A DNA stretch of 64,000 bases from Rhodospirillaceae bacterium (GTDB taxonomy: Bacteria > Pseudomonadota > Alphaproteobacteria > CACIAM-22H2): positions 1 to 64,000 of the forward strand of contig JALHMR010000001.1 in NCBI GenBank assembly GCA_022843945.1. The letters are read 5' to 3'. Below the pieces are notes generated by a model. It did not search any database and was not told where the DNA came from. It saw only the letters and a list, made by a program, of their open reading frames with translations. Each line of letters opens with the position of its first letter. Position 1 is the first letter of the stretch. Positions 38,974 to 50,606 of this stretch are shown piece by piece. Position numbers and translations under genes: made by a program.

Positions 38974-39567
38974 CTAGACGGACCGTCGCGCGCGGAGCGC
39001 CGCGGTCAGGGTGCCGTCGTCGAGATAGTCCAGTTCCCCGCCCACCGGCACGCCGTGGGCCAGGCGCGTGACCTGGACCTGCGTGCCGGCCAGCCGGTCG
39101 GTGACGTAATGCGCGGTGGTCTGGCCTTCCACCGTGGCGTTCATGGCCAGGATGATCTCCTTGACCTCCGAGGCCGAGGCGCGCTCCACCAGCCGGGCGA
39201 TGCTCAGGTCCTCGGGGCCAACGCCGTCGAGGGCCGAGAGCACGCCGCCGAGCACATGATAGCGCCCGCGGAAGGCCGCCGAGCGCTCGATCGCCCAGAG
39301 ATCGGCGACTTCCTCGACGACACAGATCTGCGAGACGTCGCGCTTGGCCCCGGCGCAGATCGAGCAGGGATCGATGGTGTCGAGATTGCCGCAGGTCGTG
39401 CAGGTCACGATGCGCTCGGCGGCCAGGTCGAGCGCCTCGGCCAGCGGCTTGAGCAGCGTCTCGCGTTTCTTCAGGAGATCGAGTGCGGCACGCCGGGCCG
39501 AGCGCGGCCCCAGGCCGGGAAGTTTGGCGAGGAGTTGGATCAGCGTCTCGATTTCGGGGCCGGTCAT
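38974..39567 (-). CDS. recR: Recombination mediator RecR
   Basis: A 197-residue protein that with RecO and RecF loads RecA at gaps. It begins [20 protein letters not shown] with the helix-hairpin-helix ([15 protein letters not shown]), the four-Cys zinc finger [16 protein letters not shown] and the Toprim domain starting [19 protein letters not shown], plus the C-terminal [19 protein letters not shown]. It follows ybaB and dnaX on the same strand, the usual order, but a repeat of about 100 bp separates it from ybaB. Confidence 0.96.
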
Positions 39568-39581
39568 CGTTCGTCCCAGTC

Positions 39582-39680
39582 GTCACCCCGGGCAAGCCGC
39601 GTCCGCGCGGCGCGACCCGGGGTCCATTGTGCCGCTGGAAAGATGGACCCCGGCTCGCGCTTCGCTTGGCCGGGGTGACA
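39582..39680. repeat. Palindromic repeat, family A, full element
   Basis: A 99-bp imperfect palindrome with outer arms GTCACCCCGG and CCGGGGTGAC, a second pair CCCGGGGTCCAT / ATGGACCCCGG, and the connector ATTGTGCCGCTGGAA, which matches the 6522-6608 copy. It lies within the ybaB-recR gap and may process or weaken the transcript there. Confidence 0.88.
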
Positions 39681-39710
39681 GTTGGAACTAAGCGTCGACA
39701 ATCGCGCCAC

Positions 39711-40034
39711 TTAGAAAGGAAGCTTCATGCCCGGCGGCAGGTTGAGGCCGCCGGTCACCTCTTTCATCTGCTCGGCCGCCGCGGTCTCGACCTTGGCGCG
39801 GGCGTCGTTGATCGCCGCGACGATCAGGTCCTCGAGAACCTCGACCTCTTTGGGATCGACGAGCGAGGGCTCGATCTTGAGCTTCTTGATCTCGCCCTTG
39901 CCGCTGACCGTGGCGCGCACCAGGCCGCCGCCAGCCGCCCCATCGATCTCCATCTGGGCCAGTCTTTCCTGCATCTCGGCCATCTTAGTCTGCATCACTT
40001 GCGCCTGCTTCATCAGCTGGCCGAGATTCTTCAT
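39711..40034 (-). CDS. ybaB: YbaB/EbfC nucleoid-associated protein
   Basis: A 107-residue DNA-binding protein with the family's helix-rich start ([20 protein letters not shown]), a central beta-sheet with [20 protein letters not shown] and the closing [15 protein letters not shown]. Members dimerise into a tweezer-like shape and bind DNA. It starts 3 bp after the dnaX stop, the classic arrangement. Confidence 0.95.
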
Positions 40035-40037
40035 CGT

Positions 40038-41822
40038 CTAGTCCTCCACGTCCTCGTCGCTGCCGAGCGGCATCTCATCGCCGCCGGATGCGGGTGTTGC
40101 CGTCTCGGCGGCCATGCCGCGCACCGCCTCGATGGTCGCCCCGGGAAAGGCCTTGAGCACAGCATCGACCAGCGGATGGGTCGCCGCCGCGGCCTTCACC
40201 GCCTCGCGCTGGACATGCGCCTGCTGGGCCAGGGTCGGCGCCCCGTCAGCGTTGACGTCCATGAAGATCGTCCAGGTGCGGCCGGTCCAGCGCTCGAGCA
40301 GCGGCTTGAGCAAGGCGTTCAGATTGCGCGGCGCGTGCGAGCCGGGATGGAAGACCAGCTTGCCCGGCTCGAAGCTCACCAGGTGGACGTTGTTCACCAG
40401 ATGCGCATGCAGGATGCCCTCGCGCTTGGCCTCGAAAAGCTGGACGAGCTCGGCGAAGCTCTGCGGATCGGGGCGATCGGCAGCGGGGGCCGGCGCCGCG
40501 TCCGGCTGCTGGCGCAGCGCCTGGACCTGGCCATTGCCGCCCATTCCGTTACCAGAAGGAGAACGAACACTCGTCGACGCGACGGCGGAGGTCCCCGGGC
40601 CGTTGCCGCCGCGCGTCGGCACGCTGCCGCGCGAGGCGGGGGCGGCCGAGCCGTTGCCGCTGGCGCTGCCGGCGATGATCTCGCCCGGTGTCGGCAGGTC
40701 CGCCGTATAGGTGAGCCGCACCATGACCATCTCGGCCGCGGCCAGGGGCGAGGGCGCGTACTGGATCTCCGACAGGCCCTTGAGCAGCATCTGCCAGGCG
40801 CGGGCCAGCGTCGGCATCGCCAGCTTGGCAGCGAGATCGCGGCCGCGGGCCCGCTCGGCCTCGGGCACGGTCACATCGTCGGCCAGATCGGCGGCGATCT
40901 TGAGCCGGGTGAGCCAGTGCGTGACGTCGAGCAGGTCCTGCACGATCACCGCCGGATCGGCGCCCGAGCGATAGGCCTCGGCGAGCTGGGACAGCGCCGC
41001 CCTGGCGTCGCCCTTCATCAGCGATTCGAACAGGTCGAAGACCTGGGTGCGGTCGGCGAGGCCGAGCAGGCCGCGCACATCCGTCTCGCCGACATCGCCT
41101 TCGACATGGGCCAGGGCCCGGTCGAGCAGTGACAGACCGTCGCGCGCACTGCCGTCAGCGGCGCGACCAAGCAGCGCCGCGGCGGCCGGCGACAGCTTGC
41201 GGCCCTCTTTCTCGGCGATGGTCGACAGGTAGTTGCCCAGCACCGCCTGGTCGATACGCCGCAGGTCGAAGCGCTGGCAGCGCGACAGGACGGTGATCGG
41301 GACCTTGCGGATCTCGGTGGTGGCGAAGATGAACTTCACATGCTCGGGCGGCTCCTCGAGCGTCTTGAGCAGGGCGTTGAACGCCGGCTTCGACAGCATG
41401 TGGACTTCGTCGAGGATGTAGATCTTGTAGCGCGCCTTGACCGGGCGGTAGCGGGCCCCATCGGTCAGGTCGCGGATGTCGTCGACGCCGTTGTGGCTGG
41501 CGGCGTCCATCTCGACCACGTCCATGTGCCGGTCCTCGGCGATGCCCACGCAATGCTCGCACACGCCGCAGGGATCGAGGGTCGGCCCGCCCTTGCCGTC
41601 CGGGCCGACGCAGTTGAGCGCCCGGGCAACGATGCGTGCCGTGGTCGTCTTGCCGATACCGCGCACGCCGGTCATGACGAAGGCGTGGGCGATGCGGCCC
41701 GAGGCAATGGCGTTCGACAGGGTGCGGACCATCGCTTCCTGGCCGATCAGGTCGGCAAAGCGGGTCGGCCGGTACTTGCGGGCGAGGACGCGGTAGGGAG
41801 CGGGAGCCGGGCTGTCGGTCAT
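40038..41822 (-). CDS. dnaX: DNA polymerase III subunit tau (gamma/tau)
   Basis: A 594-residue clamp-loader ATPase. Walker A is MTGVRGIGKTTTARIVARAL, the zinc module has CGVCEHC plus an upstream Cys, Walker B and sensor parts are KIYILDEVHMLSKPAFNALL, and the arginine finger is SRCQRFDLRR. Domain III covers about 230-360, and a Ser/Gly/Pro-rich linker (about 385-430) leads to the tau-specific part that binds polymerase. No A-rich slippery site of the E. coli kind is visible, so a gamma product by frameshift is not predicted. SRP RNA lies upstream on the same strand. Confidence 0.96.
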   Translation of the reverse strand: MTDSPAPAPYRVLARKYRPTRFADLIGQEAMVRTLSNAIASGRIAHAFVMTGVRGIGKTTTARIVARALNCVGPDGKGGPTLDPCGVCEHCVGIAEDRHMDVVEMDAASHNGVDDIRDLTDGARYRPVKARYKIYILDEVHMLSKPAFNALLKTLEEPPEHVKFIFATTEIRKVPITVLSRCQRFDLRRIDQAVLGNYLSTIAEKEGRKLSPAAAALLGRAADGSARDGLSLLDRALAHVEGDVGETDVRGLLGLADRTQVFDLFESLMKGDARAALSQLAEAYRSGADPAVIVQDLLDVTHWLTRLKIAADLADDVTVPEAERARGRDLAAKLAMPTLARAWQMLLKGLSEIQYAPSPLAAAEMVMVRLTYTADLPTPGEIIAGSASGNGSAAPASRGSVPTRGGNGPGTSAVASTSVRSPSGNGMGGNGQVQALRQQPDAAPAPAADRPDPQSFAELVQLFEAKREGILHAHLVNNVHLVSFEPGKLVFHPGSHAPRNLNALLKPLLERWTGRTWTIFMDVNADGAPTLAQQAHVQREAVKAAAATHPLVDAVLKAFPGATIEAVRGMAAETATPASGGDEMPLGSDEDVED

Positions 41823-42012: not shown

Positions 42013-42168
42013 GGGTGGCCGTGAGCCTCAGTCCCTCGAGGCAGGCGCCGCTGGCGTTCGCCAGGCGCACGGCACGGGCAGATTTTCCCAGACACTCAAA
42101 CCGCGTATTCCTGACAAAAGAACAAGCTTAAGATGCAGAACGTCGGCAGCTAATCCTGGGGGGTGTCA

Positions 42169-42837
42169 ATGGATGAATTTGGAACCGTCGTCGACCAGCT
42201 GGCAAAGATCGCGGCGGTCGCCGGAGGACTGATCGCCGCCTTCAAGGCCATCGATGAAATGCGCAAGAAGCGCGAGGAGGATGCGCGGCAACTCCAGTGG
42301 ACTCAGGCCAAGGAGGCGCAACGCATCCTAGAGGCGGGCCTGTCAACCAAACCCGTGCGCGATGCGCTGACCATGCTCGATTGGAGCCGTCCGTTCACCC
42401 TGCCCGACAATAGCGTCGTCCACATTTCCCAACAGGAAGCCAGAGACGCCCTGCGGACTCGAGGCTTGGGGTTCACGGACAAGGAGACCTACATCCGGGA
42501 TTGTTTCGACGCACTGTTCGGTTTCTTCGACCAGGTAGAGCAGGCGCTCAAGGTGAAGCTGGTCCTGTTCAACAATGTCGAGCCGGCGCTTGCCTACTAT
42601 GTCGGGCTGATGGCCCGTCACCGGCCTGTCTTCGAGGGCTTTATGACCAACTACCATTACCTCCAGGCCACGGATCTCGTGGCCAGGTTCGACATCTGGC
42701 GCGCTGAGGAAAGCGTCACATCCGATAGGGAGGAGCTCAACCATGGCAAGCAGGAAGCCCGGAAGGCGAAAAGCAGGCAGCGCAAGAACGTCGCGCGCCG
42801 CCAACCGGCCGCCGAAGACCAAGCAGCAAGCGCCTAG
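42169..42837 (+). CDS. Hypothetical protein with N-terminal helix and basic tail
   Basis: I do not recognise this 222-residue protein. It starts MDEFGTVVDQLAKIAAVAGG, with a weakly hydrophobic helix (AKIAAVAGGLIAAFKAI) that could touch a membrane, followed by a charged helix (EMRKKREEDARQLQWTQAKE). A conserved-looking core has LTMLDWSRPFTLPDNSVVHI, CFDALFGFFDQVEQALKVKL and EPALAYYVGLMARHRPVFEG, and the tail is very basic (KQEARKAKSRQRKNVARRQ). The start may be ATG 42169 or the GTG two codons earlier. Base composition is less GC-rich than the neighbourhood and it stands alone between SRP RNA and nudC. It may be a mobile or defence-associated gene, but no domain supports that. Confidence 0.6.
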   Translation: MDEFGTVVDQLAKIAAVAGGLIAAFKAIDEMRKKREEDARQLQWTQAKEAQRILEAGLSTKPVRDALTMLDWSRPFTLPDNSVVHISQQEARDALRTRGLGFTDKETYIRDCFDALFGFFDQVEQALKVKLVLFNNVEPALAYYVGLMARHRPVFEGFMTNYHYLQATDLVARFDIWRAEESVTSDREELNHGKQEARKAKSRQRKNVARRQPAAEDQAASA

Positions 42838-43040: not shown

Positions 43041-43949
43041 ATGAAACCCAATTTCTATGCCGGGCTGGAACTCGACCGCATGGCCGAGCGCCGCGGCGAC
43101 CAAGCCTGGATCGAGTCGCTCTTTCGTAAGCCCGACAGCCGCTTGGTGCCGGTCTGGCGCTCGCGCAACCTGGTGGTCGAGGGCGAAATGCCACAAGCGG
43201 TATTTCTGTCGACGATCGAGGTGTCGGCCACACTCAACGGCAGCACCATGTTCCTGGGCCTCCACGGGGAGACGGCCTATTTCGCCGCCGACCTCTCGCC
43301 GGTCGAGGAAGCGGCCCTGCCCGGCGTGGTGGGCCCCCAGGGCAAGTTCATCGACCTGCGCGCGGTGGGGGCGGTCATGGACCGCCAGCACGGCGCCCTG
43401 CTCGCTTACGCCCGCGGCCTCGCCCACTGGCACAGCCGGCACCAGTTCTGCGCCAATTGCGGCGCGCCGAGCGAGGCCGCCGAGGGCGGGCATGTCCGCA
43501 AATGCACGAGCGCGGCCTGCGCAGCCCAGCATTTCCCGCGCACCGATCCCGCCGTCATCATGCTGGTGACCCACGGGGACAAGGCTTTCCTCGCCCGCAA
43601 CAACCGCTTTCCCTTCCCGATGTATTCGACGCTGGCCGGCTTCGTCGAGCCGGGCGAAAGCCTCGAGGAGACGGTGGCCCGCGAGGTTTGGGAGGAGGCG
43701 CAGATCCGGGTGACCGACGTGCGTTACCAGTCCTCGCAGCCCTGGCCGTTCCCCTGCTCGATCATGCTCGGCTTCCGGGCCCGCGCCCTGAGCCTGGATT
43801 ACAAGATCGACAATATCGAGCTGATCGACGCCGGCTGGTTCGACCGGGCGCACTTGCGCGCCCGCCACGACCCCGACAAGTTCCGCACGCCGCGCGGCGA
43901 CTCGATTGCCCGGCGCCTGATCGACGAGTGGATCGCCGAGGAGCCGTGA
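43041..43949 (+). CDS. nudC: NAD(H) pyrophosphatase, NudC family
   Basis: A 302-residue Nudix hydrolase that splits NAD(H) and can remove NAD caps from RNA. The zinc finger begins FCANCGAPSEAAEGGHVRKC, the Nudix box GFVEPGESLEETVAREVWEE is complete, and the NudC-specific SQPWPFPCSIMLGF follows. The N-terminal domain is the usual NUDIX-like fold. Its stop overlaps the GTG of the next gene by 4 bp (GTGA), so it opens a three-gene operon. The 203 bp upstream contain no convincing gene. Confidence 0.94.
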   Translation: MKPNFYAGLELDRMAERRGDQAWIESLFRKPDSRLVPVWRSRNLVVEGEMPQAVFLSTIEVSATLNGSTMFLGLHGETAYFAADLSPVEEAALPGVVGPQGKFIDLRAVGAVMDRQHGALLAYARGLAHWHSRHQFCANCGAPSEAAEGGHVRKCTSAACAAQHFPRTDPAVIMLVTHGDKAFLARNNRFPFPMYSTLAGFVEPGESLEETVAREVWEEAQIRVTDVRYQSSQPWPFPCSIMLGFRARALSLDYKIDNIELIDAGWFDRAHLRARHDPDKFRTPRGDSIARRLIDEWIAEEP

Positions 43950-44959
43950 CCCTCGTCGCCGCCGAACAGGGCGAGGTGTGCGATGCTCTCGTGCGGATGG
44001 GCCTCGTGCGCAGCGGCGATTCCCCCGAGTTCGAGCGCCTGACCGGCGGGGTATCCTCGGATATCTGGAAGGTCGAGGTCCCCGGTCGTCCCGCGTTCTG
44101 CGTCAAGCGCGCGCTCAGCCAGCTGCGCGTGGCCCAGGAATGGAAGGCGCCGGTCGAGCGCAACGGCTATGAGATCGCCTGGATGCAGACCGCCGCGGCC
44201 GTGGTGCCGCAGGCCGTGCCGCGCATCCTCGGCGTCGACCCGCAGGCGCGGCTGTTCGCCATGGAGTATCTCGATCCCGGGCGCTACGTGCTCTGGAAAC
44301 AGCAGCTGCGCGATGGCATCGCATTGGTCGACACCGCACAGGCGGCGGCCAGGGCCCTGGCCCGCGTGCACGCGGCGACGGCCGGGCAGATCCAGGTCGC
44401 CGAGCGCTTCCCGACCGACGCGATCTTCCATGCCATCCGCCTCGAACCCTACCTGCTGGCGACGGCCAAGCGGCATCCGGACCTGGCGCCCGCTTTGAAC
44501 ACGTTGGTCGAGACGACCGCGCGAACCAAGCGCGCGCTGGTGCACGGCGATGTCAGCCCCAAGAACATCCTCATCGGACCCGACGGGCCGGTGTTCCTCG
44601 ACGCCGAATGCGCCTGGTACGGCGATCCGGCCTTCGACGTCGCCTTCTGCCTCAACCACCTGCTGCTCAAGGCCGTGTGGAACCGCGGGGCGGTCGACGG
44701 CTTCCTCGCCTGCTACGACGCCTTTGCGGCAGCGTACTTCGATCGCGTGACCTGGGAATCGCCGGCCGACCTGGAGCAGCGCACGGCGCGCCTGCTGCCC
44801 GGCCTGTTCCTGGCCCGCGTCGATGGCAAGTCGCCGGTGGAATACATCACCCAGGACAGCGATCGCGACCTCGTGCGGAGCACCGCGATCCCCCTGCTGC
44901 GCCAGCCGCCGAAGCACCTGGCTCAGATCCGCGACGCCTGGAAGAGGACTCTGCAGTGA
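43946..44959 (+). CDS. Aminoglycoside phosphotransferase-fold small-molecule kinase
   Basis: A 337-residue protein of the APH/choline kinase fold. The start is a GTG overlapping the nudC stop. Kinase landmarks are the Gly-rich LTGGVSSDIWKVE with FCVKRALSQL (ATP-anchoring Lys), the hinge region FAMEYLDPG, the catalytic HGDVSPKNILIG and the metal-binding DAECAWYGDPAFDVAFCLNH. Members phosphorylate sugars, amino alcohols, nucleosides or antibiotics. The LTGGVSSDIWKV opening is common to many uncharacterised bacterial kinases. Its close coupling on both sides (GTGA overlaps with nudC and the enolase paralogue) suggests that it makes the substrate for the enolase-like enzyme. Confidence 0.88.
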   Translation: MTLVAAEQGEVCDALVRMGLVRSGDSPEFERLTGGVSSDIWKVEVPGRPAFCVKRALSQLRVAQEWKAPVERNGYEIAWMQTAAAVVPQAVPRILGVDPQARLFAMEYLDPGRYVLWKQQLRDGIALVDTAQAAARALARVHAATAGQIQVAERFPTDAIFHAIRLEPYLLATAKRHPDLAPALNTLVETTARTKRALVHGDVSPKNILIGPDGPVFLDAECAWYGDPAFDVAFCLNHLLLKAVWNRGAVDGFLACYDAFAAAYFDRVTWESPADLEQRTARLLPGLFLARVDGKSPVEYITQDSDRDLVRSTAIPLLRQPPKHLAQIRDAWKRTLQ

Positions 44960-46221
44960 GGATCGAGAAAGTCATTGGCCGGCGCGTCTGGGATTCGCGC
45001 GGGCGGCCCACGGTCGAGGCCGAGATCCATGTCGCCGGCGGTTTCGTCGGCCGGGCGATCGCCCCCGCGGGTGCTTCCGCCGGCTCGGGCGAGGCCGTCG
45101 ATTTGCGGGACGGCGGCAAGGCCTTCGGCGGGCTCGACGTCGGCAAAGCCGTCGGGAATGTCGGCGGCGAGATCGCGGCTCTCCTCGTCGGCCGGGACGT
45201 GCACGACCAGGAGGGCTGCGACCGGGCTCTCATCGATTGCGACGGGACTGCGAACAAGAGCCGGCTCGGCGGCAATGCGCTGGTGGCCGTGTCGATGGCG
45301 CTTGCCCATGCCGCCGCGGCCGCGCGTAGGCTGCCGCTGTGGAAGCATCTGAGCGGCGGCCGGCCGCCGCGCGTCGCCGTGCCCGAGATCCAGATCTACG
45401 GCGGCGGCGCGCATGCCGGGCGGCGCGTCGACCTGCAGGACTTCATGGTCATCGCCACCGGCGCCACGTCGTTTGCCCAGGCTCTCGACTGGACGGCGGA
45501 AATCTATCGCCATGCCGGGCTGATCCTGGCCCGCGACAGCCGCCTGCACGGGGTGGCCGACGAGGGCGGCCACTGGCCGGCCTTCAGCAGCAACGAGGAA
45601 GCGCTCGACTGCCTGGTGCAGGCCATCGCCGCGGCAGGCTTTCGCACCCCCGATCAGGTCGCCATCTCGCTCGACATCGCGGCGACACAGCTCTGGCAGG
45701 ACGGGCGCTACCGCCTCGGCCTCGAAAAGCGCGAACTGACCAGCCAACAGTTCGAAACGCTTCTCGCCGGCTGGCTCGAGCGCTACCCGGTCGTGGCGAT
45801 CGAAGACCCGGTCGCCGAGAACGAGATGGCGGCGATGGCGCGCTTCACCGCGCGGGTACGCCAGCGGGCCATCATCATCGGCGACGATTTCCTGGTGACC
45901 AATGCCGGCCGCATCCAGCAGGCGGCCGAGAAGGCCGCCGTCACCGCCGCCCTGATCAAGCCCAACCAGGCCGGCACCTTGACCGAAACCAAGGCCGCCT
46001 TCGACGCCGCCGGGAAGGCCGGCATGCGCACCATCATCTCCGCCCGCTCCGGCGAAACCGAGGATGTGACGATCTGTCACCTCGCTGCCGGCTGGGGGGC
46101 GGACGTGCTGAAGGTCGGCTCCTTCGCCCGCTCCGAGCGCATGGCCAAATGGAACGAGTGCCTGCGCCTGGCCGAGATCGAGGGCGCCAGCTTCACCGCC
46201 TGGCGTCCTACTTCCGTCTAA
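44956..46221 (+). CDS. Divergent enolase paralogue
   Basis: A 421-residue enolase-superfamily protein of the phosphopyruvate hydratase type, starting with a GTG that overlaps the kinase stop. Compared with E. coli enolase it retains the N-terminal VWDSRGRPTVEAEI, S41, H153 (GGAHAG), E203 (ADEGGHWP), Mg ligands D240, E283 and D310/D311, the base K335 (LIKPNQAGTLTET) and K386 (LKVGSFARSERMAKWN). Two changes affect the active site: the metal-loop Glu of QEF is Asp (D162), and the catalytic His of SHRSGETED is Ala (A363). Metal binding and proton abstraction look possible, but normal 2-phosphoglycerate dehydration is doubtful. Genuine glycolytic enolase is expected elsewhere in the genome. Probably acts on a related phosphate ester. 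Confidence 0.85.
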   Translation: MRIEKVIGRRVWDSRGRPTVEAEIHVAGGFVGRAIAPAGASAGSGEAVDLRDGGKAFGGLDVGKAVGNVGGEIAALLVGRDVHDQEGCDRALIDCDGTANKSRLGGNALVAVSMALAHAAAAARRLPLWKHLSGGRPPRVAVPEIQIYGGGAHAGRRVDLQDFMVIATGATSFAQALDWTAEIYRHAGLILARDSRLHGVADEGGHWPAFSSNEEALDCLVQAIAAAGFRTPDQVAISLDIAATQLWQDGRYRLGLEKRELTSQQFETLLAGWLERYPVVAIEDPVAENEMAAMARFTARVRQRAIIIGDDFLVTNAGRIQQAAEKAAVTAALIKPNQAGTLTETKAAFDAAGKAGMRTIISARSGETEDVTICHLAAGWGADVLKVGSFARSERMAKWNECLRLAEIEGASFTAWRPTSV

Positions 46222-46338: not shown

Positions 46339-46947
46339 ATGACCCCGTCCTCTATCGCTGTGCCTACCGGCCCCATCGCCAAGGGTCTCATCACCGAACG
46401 TCGCGCCTTTTTCCGTGCCGCCGGAGCCGCCACCCTGTCCGCCACCGCCGTCGCCCTGATGGCCGGCTGTGAATCCATGGCCCAGGGCAACATGACCGCG
46501 GCCGATGTGAACATCCTCAACGTGGCGCTGGGCCTCGAGCACGAGGCGATCAACGCCTATCAGCTCGGCGCCGAGAGCGGCCTGCTGCAGCAGCCCGTGC
46601 TCAACACCGCCGTCGCCTTCCAGACCCACCACAAGGAGCATCGCGACGCGCTGATCGCCACCATCCGCAAGATGGGCGGCATGCCGGTCGCCGAGAAGCC
46701 GAAGGCCGAGTACGCCCGGGCGCTCAACGCCGGATCCTTGCGCAACCAGGCCGATGTCCTCAAGCTCGCCCAGCGTCTCGAGCGCGGGGCGGCCAACGCC
46801 TATCTCGGCGTCATTCCCTCCTTCGGCGACAAGGGTCTCGCCCAGGTCGCCGCTCGCCTCGCCGCCGACGAGACGATGCACTGGACCGCGCTGACCAGCG
46901 CCATGGGCGAGATGCTGCCGCAAAAGGCCCTGACGTTCGGCGCCTGA
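46339..46947 (+). CDS. Tat-exported lipoprotein with ferritin-like domain
   Basis: A 202-residue protein. The N-terminus has a twin-arginine signal (TERRAFFRAAGAATLSATAV) running into a lipobox LMAGC with C44, so it is likely exported folded and lipid-anchored. The mature part is a four-helix ferritin-like domain with candidate metal ligands in E67/E69 (LGLEHEAINAYQLG), H97-H98 and H101 (THHKEHRDAL), the Glu of RLERGAANAY and DETMHW. The ligand set suits a di-metal centre. GGGAGA precedes the ATG. A strong terminator follows, separating it from the cytochrome c gene. The role may be metal or peroxide handling in the periplasm; this is inference. Confidence 0.85.
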   Translation: MTPSSIAVPTGPIAKGLITERRAFFRAAGAATLSATAVALMAGCESMAQGNMTAADVNILNVALGLEHEAINAYQLGAESGLLQQPVLNTAVAFQTHHKEHRDALIATIRKMGGMPVAEKPKAEYARALNAGSLRNQADVLKLAQRLERGAANAYLGVIPSFGDKGLAQVAARLAADETMHWTALTSAMGEMLPQKALTFGA

Positions 46948-47040: not shown

Positions 47041-47415
47041 ATGAATTCGCGCCGATGGCTGCCCGCTGCCCTGGCGCTCGTTCCGGCCTTCGTCGATCCG
47101 GCGTTGGCCAACGGCAATGCCGAGCGCGGCCGTGATCTCTACGAAAGCCGCTGCATCAGCTGTCATTCGCTCGATGCCAACCGCATCGGCCCCAAGCATC
47201 GCGGCGTTTACGGCCGCAAGGCCGGCTCGGTGCCTGAGTTCACCTACTCGCCGGCGGTCAAAAGCTCGTCGGTGGTCTGGAACGACCAGACCCTGATGCG
47301 CTGGCTGACCAACCCGCAGGAGGTGATTCCCGGCCAGCGCATGAACTTCCGCGTCTCGCAGCCGCAGGACCGCGCCGACATCGTCGCCTATCTCAAGAAA
47401 GAGTCCGGCCAGTAA
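47041..47415 (+). CDS. Class I cytochrome c, periplasmic
   Basis: A 124-residue secreted haem protein. A signal peptide (MNSRRWLPAALALVPAFVDP, cleavage after ALA) precedes NGNAERGRDLYESRCISCHS with the haem site C38-I-S-C41-H42. The distal methionine lies in IPGQRMNFRVS. The pattern GPKHRGVYGRKAGSVPEFTY places it in the cytochrome c2/c550 group of alphaproteobacteria, which carry electrons between membrane complexes. A GC-rich hairpin with TTT follows. Confidence 0.93.
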   Translation: MNSRRWLPAALALVPAFVDPALANGNAERGRDLYESRCISCHSLDANRIGPKHRGVYGRKAGSVPEFTYSPAVKSSSVVWNDQTLMRWLTNPQEVIPGQRMNFRVSQPQDRADIVAYLKKESGQ

Positions 47416-50051: not shown

Positions 50052-50606
50052 ATGAACGCGTACGAATTCAATAAGATCGCTGGAGCCCTCCTGACGGCGC
50101 TCCTGGTGACCACGGTGATTGGCTTCATGGGCAATGCCCTGATCCATCCCAGGAAGCTGGAGAAGCCGGTGGTGGTGATCGAGGGCGTCGAGGCCAAGGC
50201 CGACACCCAGACCGCCGCCGCACCCGCCGTGATCGAGCCGATCGCGCCGCTGCTGCGCCAGGCCAATGCCGAAGCCGGCAAGGCCCTGTTCAAGCAGTGC
50301 GCCGCCTGCCACACGCCGGACAAGGGTGGCCGCAACGGCGTCGGTCCAAATCTGTACGACACCATCGGCAACAAGAAGGCCCATATCCCCGGCTACGCCT
50401 ATTCGAACGCCATGCAGGCTGCAGCGGCGAAGGGCGGCGAAGACGGCCAGTGGACCTACGAGCAGCTGAACGCCTTCCTCGCCAACCCGAAGGCCGTCGT
50501 GCCGGGGACGAAGATGACGTTCGCCGGACTGCGCAAGCCCGAGGATCGCGCCAATATCGTGGCCTTTCTCCGCTCGCTGTCCGATCAGCCCAAACCCCTT
50601 CCCTAG
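50052..50606 (+). CDS. Membrane-anchored cytochrome c (CycM type)
   Basis: A 184-residue cytochrome. The N-terminal helix (GALLTALLVTTVIGFMGNAL) is uncleaved, anchoring it to the membrane, followed by an Ala/Val-rich linker and the haem domain with C83-A-A-C86-H87 and the distal Met in PGTKMTFAGLRKPEDRANIV. The layout matches the CycM/cytochrome c552 proteins that bring electrons to the aa3 oxidase in rhizobia and Paracoccus. It is divergent from kdsB. A PAS-domain gene lies 43 bp downstream. Confidence 0.93.
   Translation: MNAYEFNKIAGALLTALLVTTVIGFMGNALIHPRKLEKPVVVIEGVEAKADTQTAAAPAVIEPIAPLLRQANAEAGKALFKQCAACHTPDKGGRNGVGPNLYDTIGNKKAHIPGYAYSNAMQAAAAKGGEDGQWTYEQLNAFLANPKAVVPGTKMTFAGLRKPEDRANIVAFLRSLSDQPKPLP

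Follow-up and report, generated by a model that had tools for sequence, protein, structure and literature searches.

An APH-fold kinase and an enolase paralogue with altered C3-hydroxyl ligands form a conserved gene pair in at least three bacterial phyla

We analysed the 64,000 nucleotides at the start of contig JALHMR010000001.1 of a Rhodospirillaceae bacterium (GCA_022843945.1; this whole stretch is the window), in which the gene for an APH-fold small-molecule kinase is followed directly by that for a paralogue of enolase. The kinase and paralogue genes occur as a pair in at least three bacterial phyla, far more often than chance would allow, which supports a predicted role as one functional unit. 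With middling confidence, we read the pair as a conserved catabolic module that would phosphorylate a small D-2-hydroxy acid and eliminate the product to phosphoenolpyruvate (PEP) or a close analogue. A first-pass annotation of the window had described a three-gene operon of nudC, kinase and enolase joined by two overlaps, and both the coordinates and the junctions were confirmed. GTGA occurs at each junction, with the GTG start of the downstream gene lying within the upstream stop. The genes and the codons that matter here are listed below.

43041-43949, + strand: nudC, NAD(+) diphosphatase / NADH pyrophosphatase, first gene of the overlap series
43946-44959, + strand: APH-fold small-molecule kinase, 337 aa, GTG start inside a GTGA overlap
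44549-44551, + strand: codon for Asp202 (HGD) of the kinase, predicted to be catalytic
44956-46221, + strand: enolase paralogue, 421 aa, GTG start inside a GTGA overlap
45439-45441, + strand: Asp162, in place of Glu167 (E. coli) / Glu168 (yeast), which binds the C3-hydroxyl
45562-45564, + strand: Glu203, equivalent to E. coli Glu208 (general acid), conserved
45958-45960, + strand: Lys335, equivalent to E. coli Lys341 (base for the C2 proton), conserved
46042-46044, + strand: Ala363, in place of His369 (E. coli) / His373 (yeast), which also binds the C3-hydroxyl

The third gene product matched Enolase_N (PF03952, 150.8 bits) and Enolase_C (PF00113, 242.1 bits) above cut-off, and at 417.3 bits against a cut-off of 300 it also passed TIGR01060 as a phosphopyruvate hydratase. 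The source genome (G000, 5.38 Mb in 82 contigs; G, C and L numbers are our handles for genomes, contigs and loci) has a second, canonical eno on another contig (G000:C30). Because this separate gene is present in the same genome and its product is 43% identical to that of the window gene, the latter is a paralogue, and the possibility left by the first-pass annotation that the genome held no other eno is excluded. In a 91-row tree (quick method, midpoint root), the paralogues made up one side of a branch with a support of 95 in the Shimodaira-Hasegawa-like approximate likelihood-ratio test, so that they form a clade of their own apart from canonical enolases. An AlphaFold2 (AF2) model of the paralogue had a mean predicted local distance difference test (pLDDT) score of 89.7 and was confident apart from the two loops known to move in enolases.

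In the E. coli enzyme, Gln166, Asp316, Lys392 and Mg1 bind the carboxylate, while His158, Arg370, Ser371, loop 1 and Mg2 bind the phosphate; Lys341 is the base that takes the C2 proton, and an inhibitor group analogous to the C3-hydroxyl of 2-phosphoglycerate is held by Glu167, Lys392 and His369 (PMC6863902). Of these ligand and base side chains, mapped by alignment, the paralogue loses only Glu167 and His369. Invariant in a 16-row alignment of the clade were Q161, D311 and K386 (carboxylate), H153, R364 and S365 (phosphate), D240, E283 and again D311 (metal), the base K335 and the acid E203. The two losses were equally consistent: the Glu167 position held Asp in 77/77 paralogues and Glu in 13/13 canonical enolases, and the His369 position held Ala (76/77) or Gly (1/77) in the paralogues and His in 13/13 canonical enolases. 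Both the Asp and the Ala were present in the Rhodococcus and Persicobacter versions as well. There were more fixed changes around the same site, namely Gly to Ala201 and Ala to Trp207, which flank the DEGG acid loop, and Asn to Gly149 before the loop-2 His. The altered active site proposed for this protein from the window alone holds across the clade, and its non-glycolytic character is supported.

The simplest reading of these residues is that the paralogue would still make a 2-phospho enediolate but would expel or accommodate something else at C3. With both of the side chains that hold only the C3-hydroxyl replaced, the group at C3 is probably not the one found in 2-phosphoglycerate but either another leaving group or another substituent. 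The changes in the pocket would be better suited to a 3-substituted lactate, or to a 2,3-dihydroxy acid with a longer chain, than to plain glycerate. Separately, one genome (G075) encodes a third, very divergent enolase (L081:8852-10123, on G075:C16) with Glu at the His373 position (SERSGETED), which sits on a long branch outside the kinase-linked clade.

The kinase matched Pfam APH at 58.4 bits (cut-off 23.2) and its motifs were intact: the GGVSSD loop (34-39), K54, E76, HGDxSxxN (200-207) and D219. In the kinase alignment G201, D202, N207 and D219 were invariant and H200 was conserved in at least 90%; Asp202 we take to be catalytic from general knowledge of APH kinases. The AF2 model (pLDDT 94.7) had 5-methylthioribose kinase (2pyw) as its nearest solved fold, with a Foldseek template-modelling score of 0.79 (query length) and 15-17% identity. 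The best NCBIfam match was also to 5-methylthioribose kinase (TIGR01767), but its 61.8 bits are far under the equivalog cut-off of 275, and by this profile score the kinase is therefore classed as a relative and not a member of that family. A role in 5-methylthioribose or methionine salvage was rejected on the same score, with no salvage genes seen near the pair. There was also no match of the kinase to PF13660, the MOFRL glycerate 2-kinase. Two kinase homologues stood apart. The G131 match (L024/L076, G131:C59:6570-7529) carries a TAA beside an intact enolase gene and may be a pseudogene or an assembly error. Plasmid pE20191216 of Enterobacter chuandaensis (L168, 80056-80940) has a 37%-identical homologue in an unrelated operon of U32 peptidase, aminotransferase, M14 metallopeptidase, MFS transporter and nucleotidyltransferase genes, which resembles a small biosynthetic cluster.

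We investigated how often the two genes occur together. A kinase search of 143 relatives gave 23 positive genomes, in most of which the paralogue gene comes immediately behind the kinase gene. Kinase and paralogue-profile searches were also run on 385 genomes sampled evenly from the class. The paralogue-profile scores split cleanly, with 33 genomes at 653-759 bits and canonical enolases following from 523 bits down. All 33 of these genomes carried the kinase, which was found in 39 of the 385 (P = 6e-42, Fisher test, uncorrected for relatedness), bearing out the earlier treatment of kinase and enolase as one unit. The two genes were adjacent in 29 of the 33, 1.7 kb apart in G308 and on different contigs in G102, G178 and G318. 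Six kinase genomes fell outside the 33, among them G312, in which the pair is cut by a contig end, and G367 and G103, which have a divergent Rhodococcus-type pair. Across 70 loci, the pairwise identities of the kinases also tracked those of the paralogues (Mantel r 0.76, against at most 0.40 in 1000 permutations). A canonical eno was present in 32 of the 33 paralogue genomes, the exception being a 63% complete genome, and a MOFRL glycerate 2-kinase in 32 of the 39 kinase genomes, including the source genome, where it is a separate gene. We therefore rejected the idea that the pair stands in for an absent glycerate kinase or eno, since most genomes have these two genes besides the pair.

When the kinase alignment was used for a broader scan, it found at least 571 loci. 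The best 80 came mostly from metagenome-assembled genomes of Alpha-, Beta- and Gammaproteobacteria, and the isolates among them included Methylobacterium sp. WSM2598, Bosea sp. BH3, Neoroseomonas and Roseococcus. The pair also lies on plasmids of Rhizobium, Pararhizobium, Sinorhizobium, Azospirillum, Methylobacterium, Paracoccus, Roseibium, Cupriavidus, Paraburkholderia and Caballeronia, of Rhodococcus (Actinomycetota) and of Persicobacter (Bacteroidota). The pairing thus spans phyla and is not confined to one strain, a positive outcome for the neighbourhood survey that the first-pass annotation had proposed.

The commonest third gene, near the pair in 35 loci, encodes a D-isomer-specific 2-hydroxyacid dehydrogenase; in L106 and L146 its place is taken by an unrelated 2-oxoacid reductase of the ApbA (ketopantoate-reductase) family. 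Transporters of several kinds (TRAP, EamA, MFS and ABC) occur in the operons, as do FAA hydrolases, GarD/UxaA dehydratases, a D-threonate-kinase-like protein with PdxA, a PEP-mutase/PrpB-superfamily protein, alpha/beta hydrolases and Gfo/Idh/MocA enzymes. A comparison of the TRAP solute receptors fixed no ligand. The CTP_transf and pyridoxamine-oxidase neighbours proved to be coaD and pdxH, both housekeeping.

The plasmid clusters of Rhizobium, Pararhizobium, Paraburkholderia, Cupriavidus and Rhodococcus share, besides the kinase and the paralogue, a CtBP-type 2-hydroxyacid dehydrogenase, an extradiol enzyme resembling homoprotocatechuate dioxygenase, a zinc alcohol dehydrogenase, a CMD protein and a cupin, and most of these ring-cleavage-type clusters have an HpaG-like FAA hydrolase. 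The Rhodococcus extradiol enzyme scored 296 bits, below the homoprotocatechuate-dioxygenase cut-off of 321. Such clusters with an HpaD-like dioxygenase were seen at L163, L165, L170, L174, L182 and L184-L186, in Rhizobiaceae, Burkholderiales and Rhodococcus, and most of them have a gene for PEP carboxylase (ppc). The annotated Rhizobium clusters carry ppc, as do the plasmid clusters of Pararhizobium and Rhodococcus opacus and the two of Cupriavidus; it was not seen in the Paraburkholderia cluster within the stretch read. That three classes have kept ppc beside the pair is an argument, by association, for PEP as the product of the enolase-type step. A tblastn search with the ppc and dehydrogenase proteins of the plasmid clusters gave no ppc match in the window, the part of the genome that was searched.

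These observations fit a pathway of three or four steps. A D-2-hydroxyacid dehydrogenase, or another nearby 2-oxoacid reductase, would form a small D-2-hydroxy acid substituted at C3, and the APH-fold kinase would phosphorylate its 2-hydroxyl. The paralogue would bind the carboxylate on Mg2+ and the 2-phosphate as enolase does; Lys335 would take the C2 proton and the C3 substituent would be expelled by beta-elimination, giving PEP or a close analogue. Where a cluster has a PEP carboxylase, PEP would be carried on to oxaloacetate. We infer the order of the steps, the position phosphorylated and the product; the pair itself, its co-inheritance, its conserved and changed residues and its neighbours are read from sequence. 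Phosphorylation followed by enolase-type elimination, the mechanism suggested from the window alone, remains the best one, but a purpose in nucleotide or NAD repair is unsupported by the neighbours. Several observations weigh against the catabolic module. Three genomes estimated to be 99-100% complete (G026, G339 and G360) carry the kinase without an adjacent paralogue and have only a canonical enolase. The 2-hydroxyacid dehydrogenase is absent near the pair in many loci, the window included, and ppc turned up in the aromatic-type plasmid clusters alone, in none of the loci from metagenome genomes. Finally, the neighbourhoods are diverse, and no single one reveals the substrate.

What the module would act on can be read in several ways. 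The reaction types resemble, in their order, the PEP arm of the serine cycle (hydroxypyruvate reductase, GckA, enolase and PEP carboxylase), and genes for all four kinds of enzyme lie close together on the plasmids of Rhizobium, Pararhizobium, Cupriavidus and Rhodococcus. Unlike in that arm, the kinase comes from a family unrelated to GckA, the enolase has altered C3-hydroxyl ligands and the genes lie inside ring-cleavage and sugar-acid type clusters. The kinase might then be an APH-fold glycerate 2-kinase and the paralogue still a phosphopyruvate hydratase, in a route from hydroxypyruvate through D-glycerate, 2-phosphoglycerate and PEP to oxaloacetate; sugar-acid and ring-cleavage neighbours could supply hydroxypyruvate or glycerate, and the kinase-only genomes could rely on their canonical enolase. 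However, a MOFRL glycerate 2-kinase and a canonical eno are already there in most of the genomes concerned, and both C3-hydroxyl ligands, Glu167 and His369, are lost throughout the paralogues, so we consider this route rather unlikely. A second reading takes the substrate to be a 2,3-dihydroxy acid of greater length, namely a tetronate, pentonate or hexonate. Phosphorylated at O2 and dehydrated by the paralogue to a substituted PEP, it would give a phosphorylated path to a 2-oxo-3-deoxy acid for FAA hydrolases or aldolases. The changes of Glu to Asp and His to Ala would free space for a C3 substituent, and the clusters with GarD/UxaA dehydratases, the D-threonate-kinase-like protein and PdxA, FAA hydrolases, Gfo/Idh/MocA enzymes and a TRAP receptor are of the expected kind. 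PEP carboxylase would not use a substituted PEP, though, and the path would be redundant where a cluster already has a sugar-acid dehydratase; we regard it as quite unlikely. A bolder version of the proposed module makes the paralogue a new lyase that would expel a non-hydroxyl C3 group (such as alkoxy, aryloxy or sulfite) from a 2-phospho-3-substituted lactate, served by a new APH-fold 2-hydroxyacid 2-kinase and moved between phyla on plasmids, which is possible but on balance doubtful. Sulfolactate as the general substrate was rejected, as the matches that hinted at it were below their cut-offs (102 against 148 and 115 against 222 bits), and it is kept only as one candidate. One hint came from L110, with a thiamine-pyrophosphate enzyme pair resembling sulfopyruvate/phosphonopyruvate decarboxylase, and the other from L127, where a GarD-like dehydratase comes in two parts; this split enzyme, however, matches galactarate dehydratase.

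Two further explanations would place the pair outside catabolism. The paralogue might be a non-catalytic or moonlighting enolase, for example a regulatory one, given that two of its active-site residues differ from those of canonical enolases; yet in the clade alignment there is no variation at the base and acid positions or at those that bind metal, carboxylate and phosphate, and the protein is coupled to a kinase with intact motifs, which makes this very improbable. Alternatively, NudC, kinase and enolase might form a single repair or recycling pathway for NAD(H) or NAD-capped RNA. The nudC product itself is typical: it scored 228.8 bits against a cut-off of 158 for NCBIfam NF001299, NAD(+) diphosphatase, and has an N-terminal NUDIX-like domain, a zinc ribbon and a NUDIX domain (PF09296, PF09297 and PF00293, all above cut-off). 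A scan found no consensus promoter or terminator within or just upstream of the operon. The two 4-base overlaps and the same gene order in one congener (L056) speak for a shared pathway. However, nudC adjoined the pair in none of the other loci read (about 100), where outside the source genus the pair trails housekeeping genes (gyrA-coaD, pdxH, sspB) or sits in catabolic clusters. We find a joint NudC pathway scarcely credible. In the source genus nudC is probably on the same transcript as the pair but no member of its pathway, and because the pair elsewhere simply trails housekeeping genes, the best reading of the window's nudC is as another host operon of that kind, like coaD, pdxH and sspB.

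Compared with glycolytic enolase (EC 4.2.1.11), the paralogue keeps the fold, about 43% identity, the Lys base, the Glu acid, the three metal ligands and the carboxylate and phosphate ligands, whereas it differs in its separate clade, in the replacements at Glu167, His369, the DEGG loop and the Asn position, and in being nearly always found with the kinase and beside a canonical eno in the genome. The kinase shares with 5-methylthioribose kinase (MtnK, APH superfamily) its nearest fold and best family match, but not the sequence identity, the family score or the methionine-salvage neighbours. Carboxyphosphonoenolpyruvate synthase of bialaphos biosynthesis is a precedent for an enolase homologue with another substrate; no phosphonate biosynthesis genes were recognised near the pair. 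We found no description of the kinase-enolase pair in the open literature, subscription journals being mostly outside the coverage. The fold families are known; what appears to be new is their combination, together with the active site specific to the clade and the pathway proposed here.

Around the operon, both species of the genus have a minus-strand block upstream of nudC (window 38974-41822; also L056), made up in the window of 38974-39567, 39711-40034 and 40038-41822, the last resembling the DNA polymerase III gamma/tau subunit gene. Uncharacterised open reading frames lie between this block and nudC (window 42163-42837). The paralogue gene is followed by one for a ferritin-like protein (46360-46947), and further on the genes for two related small proteins (47041-47415 and 50052-50606), the first a c-type cytochrome, flank a prephenate-dehydratase-like gene.

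Enolase is widely treated as an enzyme with a single job, whereas here an enolase-type protein with consistent changes in its leaving-group pocket is tied to a kinase of its own in at least three phyla. Such paralogues pass automatic annotation as "eno: phosphopyruvate hydratase"; they are probably misannotated, and can confuse metabolic models. Through the pair, small hydroxy acids may have a new way into PEP.

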